Source: Candidatus Thiosymbion oneisti
GTDB taxonomy: Bacteria; Pseudomonadota; Gammaproteobacteria; Chromatiales; Chromatiaceae
Direction: 5' to 3'
DNA: 38,218 bases
Assembly: GCF_900092655.1 (NCBI RefSeq)
Contig: NZ_FLUY01000577.1
Location: 1-38,218 of the forward strand
In this document: piece by piece, positions 12,094 to 21,686 of the stretch
How positions within the stretch are numbered: the first letter of the stretch is position 1
Layout of the letters: the number at the start of each line of letters is the position of its first letter
Notes under the pieces: model-generated
The model's input: only the letters and a program-made list of their open reading frames with translations
The model's database searches: none
Told to the model about the DNA's origin: nothing
Translations under genes and position numbers: made by a program

Positions 12094-14958
12094 ATGAAAA
12101 GCCATTCTCTCCGGTTAGTTGATTTTACTGATGGTGACGGAGATCCTACTACAGGATTAGTGCCTGTAGGGAGTGCTTCCAATACGCTCAATCTCGAAAC
12201 TGACGAAAAAGTAGCACTTTTTGAAGCTGAGCTATTCGAGCATATAGGTTTCGTATTCTTCCGCCGTTTCTCAGATGGTCGGTCGTCTCAAATTTCAGCT
12301 TATGTCGTTGATAACTCTGATGAGCATCTTAATGAAAAAGAATTAGCTGAACTTCATTTAAAAGTCTGGCTTCATGGTACTGCGCCATTGCTTTATATCG
12401 CTTGGCCCAGCCGAATTGATGTATTAACCTGTGCTCGAGGACCAGACTTTTGGGAGTCTGATGCTAAAGAGTGTCAGTATAATCCCGTAGACAAAATAGA
12501 TAGTAAAACTTTGAGGACTGCTGGTGCTATAAATGTTGAACTACAAAGGTTTTCAGCACTGGGGCTGGCTGATGGAACTTTTTGGGAAGAACCTATTAAT
12601 AAGGAATTAGCAGATCATAACAAGGCCGCACACCAATCTTTAATCCAGGCCGTAGTGGAAGCTGATAGCGAGCTTGATGGAGAAGAGAAGCCCATTCTCC
12701 GTCGTTTACTTTTGTTAATGGTATTGATCAAATATCTCGAAGATCGTCGTGTTTTCCCGAATGGTGGTTGGTTTGGTGAATTCCATAAGGGGGCCAAAAG
12801 TTTTTTTGATGTATTGCGAGGCGGTAAACCCGAGAATGTATATAACCTATTGAACTTTTTGGAACAAAAATTCAATGGTGATATTTTTACCGTCCGTCGT
12901 GAAGATATTACAAAACCAATCCTTGAAACATTTTCAGATGTTGTCGAGGCCAGAACTCTAAACAAACAGCGATACCTTTGGCAGCAATTCTCTTTCGAAC
13001 ATCTCCCTGTTGAAATTATCAGTCATCTGTATCAACGTTTCGTTAAAGGGGGGCACGGTACTGTTTATACTCCTCCATTTTTGGCATCTCTATTATTAAA
13101 TCATGCCATGCCTTACAACAAGCTCACTGGCAACGAACGCGTTCTAGATCCAGCATGCGGATCAGGTGTTTTTCTTGTTGGAGCATTCAGGAGGCTCGTT
13201 AATGTATGGCGGAGCCGTAATAATTGGCAACGTCCGGATGTCGATACGCTTAAACGAATCCTCAAGGAAAGTATTTATGGGTTTGAATTGGACGCAGGAG
13301 CTATTGATTTGACCGCATTTAGTTTGAGCCTGGCTATTTGCGATGCATTGCAACCCGACGTGATTTGGGGAGACTTGAAGTTTGATTATCTCCGTGAATC
13401 AAACCTATTTGGAGTAGATTTTTTCAGTGCTATTATCGGGCCTGAAAAAATAGAGTTCAACCCCTGTAAAGAAGATTTCGAAATAATTATAGGTAATCCT
13501 CCTTTTGAATCAAAGCTCTCACCAGCCGGAGAGGAAGCAAATAGCATTGCGAAACAGCATAATACTGAGCGTGGAGAACTACCGGACAAACAGGTAGCTT
13601 ACCTATTTCTGGAACAGGCACTAAATCTTCTTCGACCCAGTGGACAAATTTGTTTAATTCAACCTTCCGACCTACTGCATAACGATAAAACTAAAAATTT
13701 TTTCCGTAATGCCATAGCTCGAAAATGTAGAATCAAAGCAATTCTTGATTTTACTTCTATTCGCAACCTATATGAAGCGGATCCTAAGACCATTGCAATC
13801 TTAGCCGAAAAGGGAATTCCCGAAGGGGATAATTTGATCGCTCACTGGACTTTTCGTAGAACGGTAAGCGTTCACGAACGGATCTGTTTTGAATTGGATC
13901 ACTATGATCGGCATCGTATCACGCAAAGACAAGCTGAAGAGTTTCCTTTTATATGGCGAGTGAATCTTCTTGGTGGAGGGCGATTATTAGATATATCGCA
14001 ACGCCTTCGAGATATACGTAAGCTTGCTGAATTTGTGCGGCACAAAGGCTGGGGTTATGGCGAAGGGTTTATTGCAGCCAAAACGGGAAGGCGAACACCA
14101 GCGCCGTTTCTGGAAGGGAAACCCCTCCTTCCTACCGATGCACTTACTGATTCCGGCATAGATGAAGCAAAAATTTCCAATGTGAAAGAAAGACTCTTCT
14201 GTTCCGCCCGTACTGAAGACCGCTACACTACACCGCTTGTTTTGATAAAAGAGACAGATTCTCTCCCTATCGTTTTCTGGGATAAAGGGTTTATCGCATA
14301 TCGGCACCAAATTATTGGTATTCATACCCCTCCGTCGCAGGTATCTGATTTACATCATTTTTATGAATTTCTTATCAAGAATCATGCGCTCTATCGATTT
14401 GCTTGTACATTGAACGGAACTCGATCTTTAGTGGGAAAATCCACCTCGATTCTCAAGCGAGATATCGACATTCTGCCTTACCCCGAAGCAGCCGAAGAAA
14501 TTTCTCTCTCTTTCTGGGAAAATGCCTTGTGCGAGGATGTACTTGAATATATAACCTCCTATGTGCGACTTGGGCAGAATTCAGACTTATTACGAACTGC
14601 CGCTGAAGAGCAGGCACTTCGGAATTATTCAAGCCTGTTTGTCCGTATGCTGGGCAGCGTATATGATAATCTGAAAGCATCTGCCCCTGTTTTTCTTGAT
14701 GGTCTAATCTGTCAGCCATTCTATTTTGGTGAACGCCCAAACCTCGAATGGCTTGCAGAGCACCCTGAAATCGAGCTTCGAAAACTTGTATATTATAAGG
14801 AGAATCACAGCCATCTACAAACAGTCCGTTTATTACGCATTTATTCTGAAAATGTCTTATTACTCATAAAACCGGATCGCTTACGCTACTGGATCCGTTC
14901 AACTGCAGTTCGGGATGCTGATGAAACCCTTTTAGATCTACGTAAACAGGGATATTGA
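12094..14958 (+). CDS. N6-adenine DNA methyltransferase, Eco57I/HsdM-like
   Basis: The 954-residue protein is a SAM-dependent DNA adenine methyltransferase. Motif I is VLDPACGSGVFL (350-361) and the catalytic motif IV is NPPF (468-471 in IIIGNPPFE), so the gamma-class layout is complete. About 340 residues precede motif I, including a beta-rich stretch (LLYIAWPSRIDVLTC, about 100-115) and a helical part before YTPPFLASLLL. The C-terminal third (about 620-820) resembles a target-recognition region ending SLVGKSTSILKRDIDILPYP. I see no convincing PD-(D/E)XK motif within it; the next gene supplies one. The DNA is visibly AT-richer than its neighbours and the codon use differs, which suggests transfer. 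It could be the modification half of a restriction system or a standalone defence methylase. No S subunit is present. Confidence 0.85.
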   Translation: MKSHSLRLVDFTDGDGDPTTGLVPVGSASNTLNLETDEKVALFEAELFEHIGFVFFRRFSDGRSSQISAYVVDNSDEHLNEKELAELHLKVWLHGTAPLLYIAWPSRIDVLTCARGPDFWESDAKECQYNPVDKIDSKTLRTAGAINVELQRFSALGLADGTFWEEPINKELADHNKAAHQSLIQAVVEADSELDGEEKPILRRLLLLMVLIKYLEDRRVFPNGGWFGEFHKGAKSFFDVLRGGKPENVYNLLNFLEQKFNGDIFTVRREDITKPILETFSDVVEARTLNKQRYLWQQFSFEHLPVEIISHLYQRFVKGGHGTVYTPPFLASLLLNHAMPYNKLTGNERVLDPACGSGVFLVGAFRRLVNVWRSRNNWQRPDVDTLKRILKESIYGFELDAGAIDLTAFSLSLAICDALQPDVIWGDLKFDYLRESNLFGVDFFSAIIGPEKIEFNPCKEDFEIIIGNPPFESKLSPAGEEANSIAKQHNTERGELPDKQVAYLFLEQALNLLRPSGQICLIQPSDLLHNDKTKNFFRNAIARKCRIKAILDFTSIRNLYEADPKTIAILAEKGIPEGDNLIAHWTFRRTVSVHERICFELDHYDRHRITQRQAEEFPFIWRVNLLGGGRLLDISQRLRDIRKLAEFVRHKGWGYGEGFIAAKTGRRTPAPFLEGKPLLPTDALTDSGIDEAKISNVKERLFCSARTEDRYTTPLVLIKETDSLPIVFWDKGFIAYRHQIIGIHTPPSQVSDLHHFYEFLIKNHALYRFACTLNGTRSLVGKSTSILKRDIDILPYPEAAEEISLSFWENALCEDVLEYITSYVRLGQNSDLLRTAAEEQALRNYSSLFVRMLGSVYDNLKASAPVFLDGLICQPFYFGERPNLEWLAEHPEIELRKLVYYKENHSHLQTVRLLRIYSENVLLLIKPDRLRYWIRSTAVRDADETLLDLRKQGY

Positions 14959-14960
14959 CC

Positions 14961-15695
14961 ATGAATAGGGATCATGTCGAGCCTGAAATGCCATCCATTG
15001 GTCAAATCACATCCGGGATTGAACCGAAGGCAGAAAAGATTGTTCCCAAAACCATTTCTTTTGTTCATCAGCAGCTACCGCATTGGCGTGATGACCCTGA
15101 TAGACCGGATAAAAAATCAGAAGATGAACTGAATTTGCAATTATGCAAATTCCTCGACACACAGGCGCGGAATGATTTTCCAATGGTTCGCTTTAATCAT
15201 GAAGAGCCTCAGATTGACCGCCGACGGGTAGGTCTCTCAGCGTCACCTGTGAAGGCAGTGACAATTGACGCACGATTATACACCATCTATGATCCTGTCT
15301 TGGTCTTTGAATGTAAACGATTTCCTGCTCCTTCTCCAAAAGGGCGTGAAAAGGAGTACGTTACAGGAGGCGACGCTAAAAGTGGCGGAATCCAACGTTT
15401 CAAGCTCGGCCTTCATGGGGCCGATTTAAATTCGGCAGTGATGATCGCTTACGTGCAAAAGGACTCGCCTCGCCATTGGTTCTACAAAGTCAATGAGTGG
15501 ATTGTAGAACTTGCCACAGGCAGAGTTGAAGATATTTGCATCTGGAATAGAAATGAGTTGCTTGAGATGATAGATAAATGCCATCCAAAGAGAATAATCC
15601 GCTGCAAATCTGTTCATCTCAGAACTGACAGCGTTACAAATAATATCCGGCTCTTTCATTTTGCTATTGATATGAATATGGAGAGTTATCGATGA
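14961..15695 (+). CDS. Candidate PD-(D/E)XK restriction endonuclease
   Basis: The 244-residue product has no name I can assign, but it shows a nuclease-like motif set: an acidic residue in a helix (SEDEL, E54/E56), then D103 in VTIDARL, then E117-C-K119 in VLVFECKRF. This is the spacing expected of PD-(D/E)XK enzymes. It lies 2 bases after the methyltransferase stop and shares its AT-rich composition, so the pair probably forms one restriction-modification cassette (inference). The start could be ATG at 14961 or a TTG at 14955 overlapping the upstream stop; I chose ATG. Its TGA overlaps the ATG of metZ (ATGA), and the metZ ribosome site lies inside its coding end. Confidence 0.6.
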   Translation: MNRDHVEPEMPSIGQITSGIEPKAEKIVPKTISFVHQQLPHWRDDPDRPDKKSEDELNLQLCKFLDTQARNDFPMVRFNHEEPQIDRRRVGLSASPVKAVTIDARLYTIYDPVLVFECKRFPAPSPKGREKEYVTGGDAKSGGIQRFKLGLHGADLNSAVMIAYVQKDSPRHWFYKVNEWIVELATGRVEDICIWNRNELLEMIDKCHPKRIIRCKSVHLRTDSVTNNIRLFHFAIDMNMESYR

Positions 15696-16876: not shown

Positions 16877-16912
16877 AGGTAGAGTCGGTCTGTTTTTTTT
16901 GAACCGCAATCT

Positions 16913-16982
16913 ATCCGTAGATTACGCCGATTATCGCAGATTAAAAAGAAATAATCTGTGGGAATCTGCGTAATCTGCGAAT
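16913..16982. repeat. AATCTGCG inverted repeat, copy A
   Basis: Imperfect inverted repeat of the form ATCCGTAGATTACGCCGATT...AATCTGCGTAATCTGCGAAT, placed after metZ. The same family appears at 35832-35892 and 37011-37081, and as a half copy near 18066-18100. It is strand-neutral and may also act as a transcription-ending hairpin between convergent metZ and comF. Confidence 0.75.
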
Positions 16983-17034
16983 AGAAAAGATAGGCGACAA
17001 AAATAGTTCCCATTTCGGAACCACCCGGCGGAGA

Positions 17035-17839
17035 TCAGGGCGTACGCGCCACCGCCCAGACGTCCACACGCTCGACGCCAGCCCTCAGCAGCACCCTGGT
17101 CAGCTCCGTGACGGTGCTGCCAGTGGTGACCACGTCGTCCAGAATCGCCACCCGTTCGACGCCTGGCGGGTGCAGGACCCGGAATGCCCCGCGCACATTA
17201 CGCTGCCGCTCCTTGCGCGCCAATCCGGCCTGGGGTGGCGTGGCCGAGACCCGCACACAGCTCTGGATGTCCACCGGAATCGAAAGTTCGCGACCAATGG
17301 TGCGGGCAAGCTCGAGGGCCTGGTTGTAACCCCGCTCGCGCAATCGCTTCGCGTGTAACGGCACCGGCACAATCAGGTCCGGCAGCTCGGCGCCACACTC
17401 GCCCAGGGTACTTGCCAGGCATTGCCCGAGCAGCCGGGCCAGATTCAGACGGGCCCGGAACTTGGCCCCACCCACTAGTACCTAGTTTCGATTGATACTG
17501 CTGGCTTTGACGCTGGAGCATGAGAGCCAACCAGAGGTTATGAATTTGCAATATCGGTCGAAACTAGGTACTTAGGATAGGCAGGGGTCCCTCGTAACGG
17601 AAGGCGGCGTAACAGACGGCGTAGGGCGGCAAGCGGCGTTGGCACTCACCGCACAGAGCGCCCGGCGGCAGCTCGGCGGGCAGGGGCAGCGCGCAGCGGC
17701 GGCAGCAATGCCGGTTCCTCGGTAGATCCGCCAGACAGGGGGCACACAGATCCAGCCCACCCTGTCCCTGAGCGCCGCAGAGCACACAGGTCGGTGGGTA
17801 GAGTCGTTGCAATATCCCGTCTGAGAATTCACGCAACAT
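17035..17839 (-). pseudogene. comF: comF, phosphoribosyltransferase-like competence gene, interrupted by a MITE
   Basis: ComF proteins carry an N-terminal zinc ribbon and a PRTase domain, and act in DNA uptake and recombination. The N-terminal part (17839 down to about 17575) has PTCVLCGAQ, LCAPCLADLP, CCRRCALPLP and LCGEC cysteine pairs. The C-terminal part (17475 to 17035) has PVPLHAKRLRERGYNQA and the PRPP loop VAILDDVVTTGST. Between them a 95-bp element plus a duplicated TA (97 bp in all) shifts the frame and adds a stop 10 bases in. Deleting it joins the halves as PLPILVGGAKFRARL, giving 235 residues, the normal family length. As written the gene should be inactive. bioB and other biotin genes, common comF neighbours, are not adjacent. 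Confidence 0.93.
17478..17572. mobile_element. 95-bp MITE with TA target duplication, inside comF
   Basis: The insert begins GTACCTAGTTTCGATTGATA and ends with its near-inverse, TATCGGTCGAAACTAGGTACT. It is flanked by TA at 17476-17477 and 17573-17574. Excising it with one TA restores the comF frame exactly. Terminal inverted repeats of about 20 bp, no coding capacity and TA duplication are the marks of a Tc1/mariner-IS630-type MITE. No other copy of this end is seen in the window, and the truncated IS630 gene at 3242 has no matching ends. Confidence 0.9.
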
Positions 17840-18501
17840 GAGCAGTTCCGGTGAGACGCTAGATCCTGTTATTTAACTCTAACCGACTGTTTTCACATGT
17901 TAAATGGCTGCAACATCGCCGCGGTCCGCACAGCGGACCCTACAATCATCAGATGGTTAGCGTAGGGTCCACCTCACAACGCCAAACAATTCAGGATTGG
18001 TTTTCTCATTCGATCCTGGCGCTGTTCGGCGTTATTCGGCGTTGTCCGCAAAGGCGTCTTTTTAATTCGCAGATTACGCAGATTTCCACAGATGAAAAAC
18101 GAAAGGCTCTTTTGGAGTGCACCGGCAAAGCGGCGCGGCCGAATCGAACCTCAGTGATGGGGGATACCAGCAGCGTTTGCCAGGGACCTGGGCGCTGAAT
18201 TCCGCACGCGCCGCGGCGACGGCGCTTTCCCCTGGCTGCAACGCCGTATGCATCGCTAAATCCAAAGCGGCGGCGGGCAGGTGCTCTATAGCTAACCCTG
18301 TGGTTACCTTGAGCACCGCGAATTCCGGCAAGGACCGGGAAAAGGTTGCCGCCGCACTCCAAAACGTCCGGTAGCATCTTTCCATGGTCGTTAGCAGTCT
18401 GGAATCCATAAAGCGCCAAAGCAATTTGCCTCAGAGCGTTTGTCTCCTAACACGACAATCGATATAACGATGAGTACGGGAAGCATTGCGGGAGGCACTG
18501 A
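17840..18501. other. Repeat-bearing gap with no recognisable gene
   Basis: 17987-18100 holds a dispersed repeat (CAATTCAGGATTGG, then CGGCGCTGTTCGGCGTTATT) and half of an AATCTGCG repeat, closely matching 36933-37035. 18120-18424 is open on both strands in several frames (about 116 and 137 codons on minus, 85 on plus), but none shows a ribosome site, a familiar motif or a convincing start. It could be a decayed gene remnant. Confidence 0.4.
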
Positions 18502-18849
18502 ATGAGCTTCTTATCGAATTTGCTCCAAGGTCTGTCCGGACGCCGGCGGCTGTTTCTCTTCGCCCTCCTGGTTGCCCTGTCGGCGGTCCTCCTGACCTTA
18601 TGGGCCAGTGACGATCTGCTCACGACTTCCGTAGTTGGGGGCATCGTGGTGCTCCTGTTCGCGCTCGCCAGCCCCTTATGGCGCCCCCGTGATTACGGCC
18701 GCATGCGGGTTCGTCTCTATTCTCTGGCAATCATCTCAGGAACGGCTCTCTCCTACGGGTTTTGGTCCGCCAGCCTGACCGCCATTGCCCAACCGTTTCT
18801 CGGCCACTTCGAGCTAAATCTCCCCCAACTACGGTACCTGTGGCCGTGA
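18502..18849 (+). CDS. Small three-helix membrane protein coupled to the NACHT gene
   Basis: The 115-residue protein is unrecognised. It has three hydrophobic segments at about residues 16-34 (LFLFALLVALSAVLLTLWA), 40-59 (TTSVVGGIVVLLFALASPLW) and 74-97 (LAIISGTALSYGFWSASLTA). A basic Arg-rich patch lies before helix 1 and between helices 2 and 3. Its stop TGA (18847-18849) shares one base with the ATG of the NACHT gene (18849), the TGATG arrangement of translational coupling. The next gene also starts with a membrane helix. Two readings are therefore possible: two subunits of one membrane complex, or one protein split by a frameshift near 18840. It starts about 150 bases after the last repeat, with GGGAGGCACTGA before ATG. 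Confidence 0.65.
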   Translation: MSFLSNLLQGLSGRRRLFLFALLVALSAVLLTLWASDDLLTTSVVGGIVVLLFALASPLWRPRDYGRMRVRLYSLAIISGTALSYGFWSASLTAIAQPFLGHFELNLPQLRYLWP

Positions 18850-21686
18850 TGGTCTTCGTTCTCATGGGGGTGCTGATCGTCAACTACTTCACGCGCGACA
18901 CGACCACGATGCGTGAGCATCTTTCGGCCCTAGAGCTCTCTGAATCCGAAGGGTTGATGCGTCTCGGACGTGTCCTCCGCAACGACCTCGCTCACCAAGA
19001 CATCGAAACCCACTGGAGCGGGGAATTCTTCGAGCCCCTGGATGCCGAGGTCGAAGTCAAACGTCGGGGGCGTATCATGCGCCGCACGGCCAGTCTGCTC
19101 GAGGCGATCACCAAGGAGCATGCGGCTTCCACCCTCTTGGTGCTGGGCGATCCAGGCTCCGGGAAGAGCGTTGCCCTGCGCAAGCTCGCGGGCGACCTTG
19201 TCGATGAAGTGGCGAAAACCAGGCGCCTACCCCTCTACATCAATCTACGTGACTGGCGGCCGAACCGCGTCTGGTCCCGAGAAGATCCACCGACCCCCGG
19301 CGATTTCGAGGAATTCCTGCTGTCCCATATAAGCGGCCGTGATCTCTTCGCCGATCGGTACCTGAATGAGCAGATCGGGGACCAAAGCAGGTTCGCTCAC
19401 CTCCTGGCCGACCGGAGGATCTTTCTGATCCTGGATTCCTTCGACGAGATCCCCCAGCTGCTCGATCAGAGCGAGGCATCCTGGCTCATCGATGCGCTTT
19501 CCGATGTCATCTATGGCTACATTGCCGGGGGCCACAATGGCCGGGGTATCCTCGCCTCTCGGTATTTTCGCAGGCCTAGCCTCAAATACCGGGCGGATGC
19601 GACGTTCGAAATCCGGCCATTTTCCGACGAGCAGCTTGCCAGCTCCCTCGAACGGCGCTCAGCCTTCGGGCCATCGCAGGTCTTGGCCCTTTTTAGAGAA
19701 CGACCCCACCTGATTCCGGCCCTGCGGAACCCTTTCATCGCAGGCTTAGTGCCGGGTTTCTCGAAGATCAATCCCGAGCGCCTTCCCGATTCGGAGCTGG
19801 ACCTCTTCGAGACCTACCTCGATGAGCGACTTGGGGAATGCATCCGTGGAGCACGCGGGTCCGGGGATACGCCGCGGTCGGACCTGAATCGCCTGACACA
19901 TGCCGCGACCGATATCGCGGTTACCCTGGTCGACAACTTCGGCTTGGAAGCACCCCTCGCGGAGCTGACCCAAGCCGTCGGTGCCCACACTGGAACCACC
20001 GCCGAGACCGCTGAGATCGCCGCCAGGACATTAAGATACGGTAGGGTCGTGCGTATCGGATCCGGCATCGACGCCAGCTTCTCCTTCGTACATCGGCGCT
20101 TCACGGAGTTCTTTCTCGCCAAGCACCTTCAAAACGATCACGATCGCTTACCTTTGGGGGACATACCCAATGACGGGCGCTGGCGTGAGGCCCTGACACT
20201 CTTCGCCGGGGTTGCACCTCCCGCGGAAGCCGAAGTGATCGCGAAATACTGCATAGAATACGCATGTCGTCTTCCGGCCGCTTCGCGCAATCCCACTTCG
20301 CACGACTTTCTCGCAGGCGTCCATGCCCTCCGGTTCCTGTCCGCCAGCTTCCGGGCAAGACGAGAGGTTCTCGCGCCGCACGACCCTCAACTCGTGAACA
20401 TTGTTCGGAACCTACTACGCCCCAGCACCCCTACCCTCGCGGCAAAGATCGGATCGGAAGCCATTGGGCTGCTGCCGAGCACCTCCCTGTCCAGGCTGGT
20501 ACCGAAGGCACTCGCCTTGCCAAGCGATTGGATCGGACAAACGGCCATCAGATCCTGTCGGCACTTGGCTGGCCTCAGTAAAAAGGTAGTGGGAAGTATT
20601 CGCGGATTTGTGATCAAGCTGCCTCAAAAGGATTTCAGCTTGAGGCATCGCGAGCTGAGATTCTCGCTCTCTTTAACGGAAAATCTGGCATCCGTCGCCC
20701 GGACAGTTCAGTTTCGCCGATTCGATACTCTGCTCGCACTCGGTGCGCCATTGCCATTGTTGGCAGTCGACGTAACGATGATTATTGCGGCAATAATTCT
20801 GTTTCTATTCACATTTTTTATTTTTAAATATTATTTTCTGTTCCTCATTGATATACATGGTTGGCTGAGAGCCAAATACAAGGAAAAAAAGCGAAAAACG
20901 GTCACTAATCGTAAAGCTATAGATCGCAAAATTCGCCATTGGATGCGGATGCTAATTCCCCCTTGGTTATATCGCTTACGCGGCGTAGTCAGGCTGCGCC
21001 AACAGATGCGACGACGACACATGGCAACCAGTTTGAATCGTAACTTCGATTGGGGGTCCACCTTAGTGTTCTTCCTGTGGCGTCTTCTGCTATTGGTAAT
21101 CGGTGCCTCAATTCTTGCTAAGGGTGACTCGAATTTCTGGTCATTTGCCCAGGTCTTGCTTCCCGATGAACTGCTGTACGCGGGATCGATAACAGGCATG
21201 ACGCTTGCTGTTCCCTGGTTCCATAGCTGGGTTGCAATTCGGAATATCGTTAAAAATCCACACCTCATTTACTTCCTGGTTATCCTTTTATTGCTTGTAG
21301 GACTCTCCGCTCTGTTAGTCTGGATAATCGACATCGTCATCAAGTTGTTACCATTCCTCACGCCCCTTATCTTTGGGGGCGGTACCCTGGTTTATTTGGG
21401 ATTCTTTGTTTGGTCTGCGGTCCGACTGATACGACAGTCGCGCCATGACGCCGTACAGCTTCGGAGTATAAAACCGAATCGATCATGGACGCGTGAGCAG
21501 ATCGCGGCGCAATTGTCGGCTTTCGAGTCGAGCAAAGGACGACTGAAATTTCTCTCCATGCTCGATGAACAGCGAGTCACACCGGAGGGAGAATGGCCGG
21601 AGCCCGGCATACCTAGCCTGAACAATACACAGCTTGACACGGTACTCGCCCAACTCGAAGAACGCTGGTTGGGCCTGAATGGTTGA
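18849..21686 (+). CDS. Membrane-embedded NACHT-type STAND NTPase
   Basis: The 945-residue protein has an N-terminal membrane helix (MVFVLMGVLIVNYF, 1-14), then about 80 residues with FEPLDAEVEVKRRGRIMRRT. The NACHT NTPase follows: Walker A GDPGSGKS (100-107), YINLRDWRP, Walker B RIFLILDSFDEIP (about 190-202) with the extra acidic residues of NACHT proteins, and a sensor-like ILASRYFRRP. A helical region to about 640 contains FSFVHRRFTEFFLAKHL, common after NACHT domains. The last 300 residues are AT-rich DNA and hold about six hydrophobic helices, ending in a soluble tail. No leucine-rich or tetratricopeptide repeats are apparent. Bacterial NACHT proteins include antiphage defence members (established), but a role here is inference. 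A longer frame opens at 18762; its extra 29 residues are unlike a natural N-terminus. Confidence 0.82.
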   Translation: MVFVLMGVLIVNYFTRDTTTMREHLSALELSESEGLMRLGRVLRNDLAHQDIETHWSGEFFEPLDAEVEVKRRGRIMRRTASLLEAITKEHAASTLLVLGDPGSGKSVALRKLAGDLVDEVAKTRRLPLYINLRDWRPNRVWSREDPPTPGDFEEFLLSHISGRDLFADRYLNEQIGDQSRFAHLLADRRIFLILDSFDEIPQLLDQSEASWLIDALSDVIYGYIAGGHNGRGILASRYFRRPSLKYRADATFEIRPFSDEQLASSLERRSAFGPSQVLALFRERPHLIPALRNPFIAGLVPGFSKINPERLPDSELDLFETYLDERLGECIRGARGSGDTPRSDLNRLTHAATDIAVTLVDNFGLEAPLAELTQAVGAHTGTTAETAEIAARTLRYGRVVRIGSGIDASFSFVHRRFTEFFLAKHLQNDHDRLPLGDIPNDGRWREALTLFAGVAPPAEAEVIAKYCIEYACRLPAASRNPTSHDFLAGVHALRFLSASFRARREVLAPHDPQLVNIVRNLLRPSTPTLAAKIGSEAIGLLPSTSLSRLVPKALALPSDWIGQTAIRSCRHLAGLSKKVVGSIRGFVIKLPQKDFSLRHRELRFSLSLTENLASVARTVQFRRFDTLLALGAPLPLLAVDVTMIIAAIILFLFTFFIFKYYFLFLIDIHGWLRAKYKEKKRKTVTNRKAIDRKIRHWMRMLIPPWLYRLRGVVRLRQQMRRRHMATSLNRNFDWGSTLVFFLWRLLLLVIGASILAKGDSNFWSFAQVLLPDELLYAGSITGMTLAVPWFHSWVAIRNIVKNPHLIYFLVILLLLVGLSALLVWIIDIVIKLLPFLTPLIFGGGTLVYLGFFVWSAVRLIRQSRHDAVQLRSIKPNRSWTREQIAAQLSAFESSKGRLKFLSMLDEQRVTPEGEWPEPGIPSLNNTQLDTVLAQLEERWLGLNG

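Follow-up and report, generated by a model that had tools for sequence, protein, structure and literature searches.

A split membrane NACHT locus of Candidatus Thiosymbion oneisti is probably a single NLR-like defence gene interrupted by a frame change

A 38,218-nucleotide stretch of Candidatus Thiosymbion oneisti DNA (contig NZ_FLUY01000577.1, here called the window) carries on its forward strand a 115-residue ORF (18502..18849) followed by a 945-residue NACHT ORF (18849..21686). The stop codon of the small ORF and the ATG at 18849 share one base within TGATG, as an earlier note on this DNA had described. That note took the pair for a two-gene membrane NACHT system in which a small membrane protein is the coupled partner of the NACHT protein. 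The locus therefore raises the question of whether these are two genes or two pieces of one.

Relatives of the same layout were collected by a genome scan with a two-row alignment, which returned those of a Thiotrichaceae gammaproteobacterium, Methylobacter, Sulfurovum and Sulfurimonas, and by family and viral-contig searches, which added those of one more Pseudomonadota genome (G709) and of the IMG/VR contigs L020 and L021. All seven carry the small-ORF part and the NACHT part in one continuous reading frame, and in none is the partner a separate gene. The continuous ORFs are 1042 aa long in Thiotrichaceae, where the N-terminus includes the equivalent of the small ORF, 1011 aa in Methylobacter, 1039 aa in Sulfurovum, 972 aa from the first ATG in Sulfurimonas (976 from the listed TTG), 1088 aa from the ATG in G709 and 1056 aa in L020; L021 supplies a continuous N-terminal fragment of 448 aa. 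Continuous homologues were the very observation that the earlier note had named as speaking against its reading.

The position of the break was located by tblastn on the window. Residues 3-100 of the Thiotrichaceae protein align with the small-ORF frame as far as 18810 (E 3e-8); from 18855 it is the NACHT-ORF frame that matches, over residues 116-1041 (E 4e-150). In the case of the Methylobacter protein, the match of residues 4-89 ends at 18786 and residues 117 onwards resume at 18840. A profile HMM of the homologues' first 150 residues matches only 2 of the 733 six-frame segments of the window, and the two matches are consecutive, with the small ORF covering profile positions 2-100 (1.4e-9) and the NACHT ORF positions 120-150 (2.7e-6). 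Because the homologue matches and the N-terminal profile are both divided between the frames at this point, the frame change lies between 18810 and 18855, in the fourth membrane helix or immediately ahead of it. As measured by the end of small-frame homology and the resumption of the NACHT frame in tblastn, the zone of frame change relative to all continuous relatives is 18811..18849. By this homology the small "partner" appears to be the NACHT gene's own detached N-terminus, with TM helices 1-3, and the proposal of a coupled two-gene system is not supported.

The NACHT NTPase was said to be complete, and this proved correct. Pfam places the NACHT domain at residues 95-265 of the NACHT ORF (19131..19643; PF05729, E 3.3e-8, 34.0 bits against a cut-off of 26.7). 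Walker A (GDPGSGKS), the DxxDE-type Walker B (LILDSFDEIP) and the FSFxHRRFxE motif, with the conserved His of the WHD region, are all kept in the homologue alignment. NCH3, the NACHT C-terminal helical domain 3, occupies residues 872-943 (21462..21677; PF22729, E 5.7e-20), scoring 71.4 bits in the window protein against a cut-off of 27, and 76.5 bits on the genome. Both Pfam domains are present in the scanned TM-type relatives, the Sulfurovum NCH3 lying below the gathering score. NCBIfam gave only marginal P-loop matches, PADLOC gave no good model match (best 0.0049, in the P-loop region only) and a PDB sequence-profile search returned no match.

For the continuous Thiotrichaceae relative, AlphaFold gives a model (pLDDT 68, pTM 0.59) that is poor in its membrane parts and well predicted in its core, about residues 130-720. 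This core matches NOD2 (Foldseek E 2.6e-11) as well as NLRP3 and NLRC4 (Z about 15, rmsd 5-6 over 410-440 residues), which is an NLR-type fold. The order of parts in the NACHT ORF is the start of TM4, the NACHT NTPase, a winged-helix and helical-repeat region, a C-terminal TM block and NCH3. From its domains and from the homologue's model, the window gene belongs to the NACHT clade of STAND NTPases, with a predicted NLR-type NACHT-HD-WHD layout of the NCH3 type.

Hydrophobicity, both in the window and in the relatives, bears out the claim that membrane segments flank the NACHT domain on both sides, although the count of helices had to be revised. The small ORF, described as a three-helix protein, has two strong membrane helices and a third that is weaker. 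The NACHT ORF does have a membrane helix at its N-terminus, as reported, but this is a truncated fourth helix with the ATG inside it. The C-terminal block (20766..21410) was put at about six helices; the window copy has four strong hydrophobic segments (residues 640-658, 739-757, 809-827 and 836-854), and the corresponding number in continuous relatives is four to six; at the N-terminus these relatives have three to four. Positive charge at the N-terminus of the small ORF and in its TM2-TM3 loop agrees with an N-in topology, which would place NACHT in the cytoplasm. The C-terminal block is the fastest-evolving part of the protein, with a mean pairwise identity of 0.17 and 37% gaps compared with an identity of 0.42 in NACHT. 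Such low conservation is as expected for a putative sensor, though membrane segments also drift fast. The N-terminal bundle was modelled poorly, both within the full-length protein (pLDDT about 50) and alone (pLDDT 62, pTM 0.31), so these low-confidence models give no structural support for a pore.

These results are best explained by a single NLR-like bacterial NACHT defence gene, interrupted here by a one-step frame change near 18811-18849, a reading to which we give a probability of about 0.78. In this genome the gene would be either broken, working as two translationally coupled pieces, or intact and misrepresented by an assembly error. Apart from the break, the 2.8 kb of the NACHT ORF carry no lesion, which may point to a gene still in use or to a faulty assembly. 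The latter is a serious though tentative possibility, in which the organism itself has an unbroken gene and a wrong base was introduced in the CCCCC run at 18822-18826, inside the frame-change zone, or nearby. The fragmentation of the genome (1891 contigs), the C homopolymer within the frame-change zone and the undamaged remainder of the gene are all consistent with such an artefact. Five C residues are a short homopolymer, however, and the comF gene 1 kb away is broken by a genuine repeated insert, which shows that real gene damage occurs in this region.

If the frame change is real, the TGATG-coupled halves might in this lineage come together as the two subunits of a functional receptor, which we consider unlikely. 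Among simulated random 1-nt deletions in continuous relatives, 0.7-8% produced an ATG sharing precisely one base with the resulting stop, and 11-33% a start codon of any kind with an overlap of 1 or 4 nt. The exact overlap found here has some weight in favour of a functional fission, as does the fact that the NACHT ORF has no second lesion and keeps 79 of the 94 columns that do not vary among six relatives, a share inside the span seen for intact relatives (0.79-0.94, leave-one-out). Because simulated deletions give such overlaps at these rates, however, TGATG is only somewhat unusual, may arise by accident and is not proof of design. A GTG-ATG (Val-Met) codon pair in the membrane helix yields it by itself. 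Moreover, the fourth TM helix is itself cut, with the NACHT ATG within VPVAVMVFVLMGVLIVNYF; the sequence upstream of that ATG shows no clear ribosome-binding site; and no second split was found among the relatives of this layout. In its full form this proposal is slightly more doubtful still: a natural, still working fission in which coupled translation yields one subunit with the three N-terminal TM helices and another with TM4, NACHT, the C-terminal TM block and NCH3, in a bacterial NLR subfamily whose effector and sensor both sit in the membrane. Two further readings have little to recommend them. The small-ORF and NACHT frames overlap and differ by -1, the NACHT frame being open upstream to 18693, an arrangement in which programmed -1 ribosomal frameshifting could fuse the two frames into one product. 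This is very improbable and was rejected, because inspection of the zone (A AAT CTC CCC CAA CTA) revealed no canonical X XXY YYZ slippery site; all relatives are also continuous without one. Two separate genes, the small one coding for an independent membrane partner, would agree with the layout and with the strong putative ribosome-binding site at about 18489-18496 (ggaagcattgcGGGAGGcactgaATG), whose GGGAGG (18489..18494) was seen on inspection to sit 5-10 nt upstream of the small ORF and which would serve the whole gene in the preferred reading. A real two-gene TGATG layout does exist in one NACHT relative, but its partner is a metallophosphoesterase with a common adaptor-like segment, and the homology of the small ORF to the N-terminus of continuous relatives makes an independent partner here scarcely credible.

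The features from which the earlier note suggested acquisition of the gene are present. Its 3' third is less GC-rich (40-55% GC after about 20600, compared with 57-65% before), and the neighbourhood is rich in repeats. A comF-like gene on the reverse strand (17035-17839), with zinc-ribbon and phosphoribosyltransferase parts, is split by an insert at about 17474-17573. This insert is about 99 bp long, and it is MITE-like because it is palindromic, with 25-nt inverted ends, and has about 50 listed matches in the same genome. Copies of a 34-37-nt repeat, ATCTGCGTAATCTGCG, lie on either side of the broken comF (16910-16990 and 18057-18099), and an interspersed repeat of about 310 bp, directly upstream of the NACHT gene (18104-18427), has about 30 matches at 71-80% identity in a congener (G003). 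In three congeners metZ, comF, the glycosyltransferase and the TAXI-type genes are placed differently, and the gene order of the window is not kept. Between purF and metZ (12094-15695) lie an Eco57I/type IIG-like methylase of 954 aa and a 246-aa ORF that overlaps it by 4 nt and has no family match; together these are likely a restriction-modification pair.

Relatives of the gene are rare. They turned up in 2 of 369 genomes sampled from the class, a count that includes the genome of the window itself, in 4 of 210 genomes of the family (with a lax profile), and in 1 of 249 and 1 of 43 genomes of two orders. This sporadic distribution spans Gammaproteobacteria, another Pseudomonadota order, Sulfurovum, Sulfurimonas and phage-like contigs. 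Judged from sequence, the L020 relative lies near a tyrosine-recombinase-type integrase and the L021 relative near phage structural genes. Plasmid and phage collections gave no protein match and plasmids no DNA match, and a search of viral contigs with the junction DNA was likewise negative.

The N-terminal position is occupied by different modules in related NACHT proteins. The G911 relative (L030 5482-9956, reverse strand) agrees with the window family in its core, its C-terminal TM block and NCH3, but has no N-terminal TM bundle. Its NACHT protein starts with a 36-aa segment that is 50% identical to the C-terminus of an adjacent metallophosphoesterase, and the two genes are joined by a TGATG overlap. 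This pair is a genuine two-gene NACHT system with an adaptor-like common segment, resembling the effector-associated adaptor pairs described previously (PMC7159879). Two more distant NACHT relatives have C-terminal TM segments and no NCH3 match. One of these (G918; L032 3522-7208, reverse strand) begins with a DUF4062-like (TIR-like) region that at 20.7 bits falls below the Pfam cut-off of 24.7, and the other (G905) with a single TM segment. Nuclease-NACHT proteins have been shown experimentally to be antiphage (PMC12169576), the metallophosphatase-NACHT system DS-8 is proven antiphage with both activities needed (PMC13092281), and DUF4062 is an antiphage NADase (Swarozyc, PMC13174449). Since this position holds other effector-type modules in NACHT relatives, the N-terminus is likely an effector slot and the TM bundle likely the effector here. 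By this analogy a membrane-disrupting defence effector, as the earlier note had imagined, is plausible.

Family and context suggest that the gene is a probable phage-defence gene. Against the defence reading, no phage-defence genes flank it closely in the window except the type IIG-like methylase 3.5 kb upstream, and its PADLOC matches are marginal. The intact protein would be a membrane-anchored receptor with about four N-terminal TM helices, a cytoplasmic NACHT-WHD-helical-repeat switch, a variable C-terminal block and NCH3. The C-terminal block and helical repeats may sense infection or a disturbance of the membrane, upon which NACHT would exchange nucleotide and oligomerise. The clustered N-terminal TM bundles could then permeabilise the inner membrane and halt phage growth. 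A false two-component system is thus replaced by a testable one-gene family, whose NCH3 NACHT proteins carry membrane segments at each end, and the exchange of N-terminal modules predicts where its effector lies and how it might act. The kind of system is already known and the split is local to the window genome; what is of interest here is chiefly the membrane NLR family, not the split.

Among known systems, bNACHT25 and bNACHT32 (PMC12169576) share with this family the central NACHT, the effector-NACHT-sensor order, an NCH-type C-terminus and a sporadic distribution. They carry NCH1 and a PD-(D/E)XK nuclease, whereas the window gene has NCH3, an N-terminal TM bundle and an additional C-terminal TM block, and is split in this copy. 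DS-8 (PMC13092281) is alike, by its description, in joining NACHT to a metallophosphatase as the G911 relative does, but it is a single protein with an enzyme effector. The TIR-like NADase DUF4062 of Swarozyc (PMC13174449) resembles the N-terminus of the G918 NACHT protein, at a score below the Pfam cut-off; the window family has membrane helices at that position instead. The mammalian NLRs NOD2, NLRP3 and NLRC4 are comparable in the predicted NACHT-HD-WHD-helical core of the continuous homologue. The window family differs from them in being membrane-embedded, and no LRRs, CARD or PYD were recognised in it. KAP P-loop NTPases likewise combine a P-loop NTPase with membrane segments, but there the TM segments are inserted within the NTPase, whereas in the window family they flank it.
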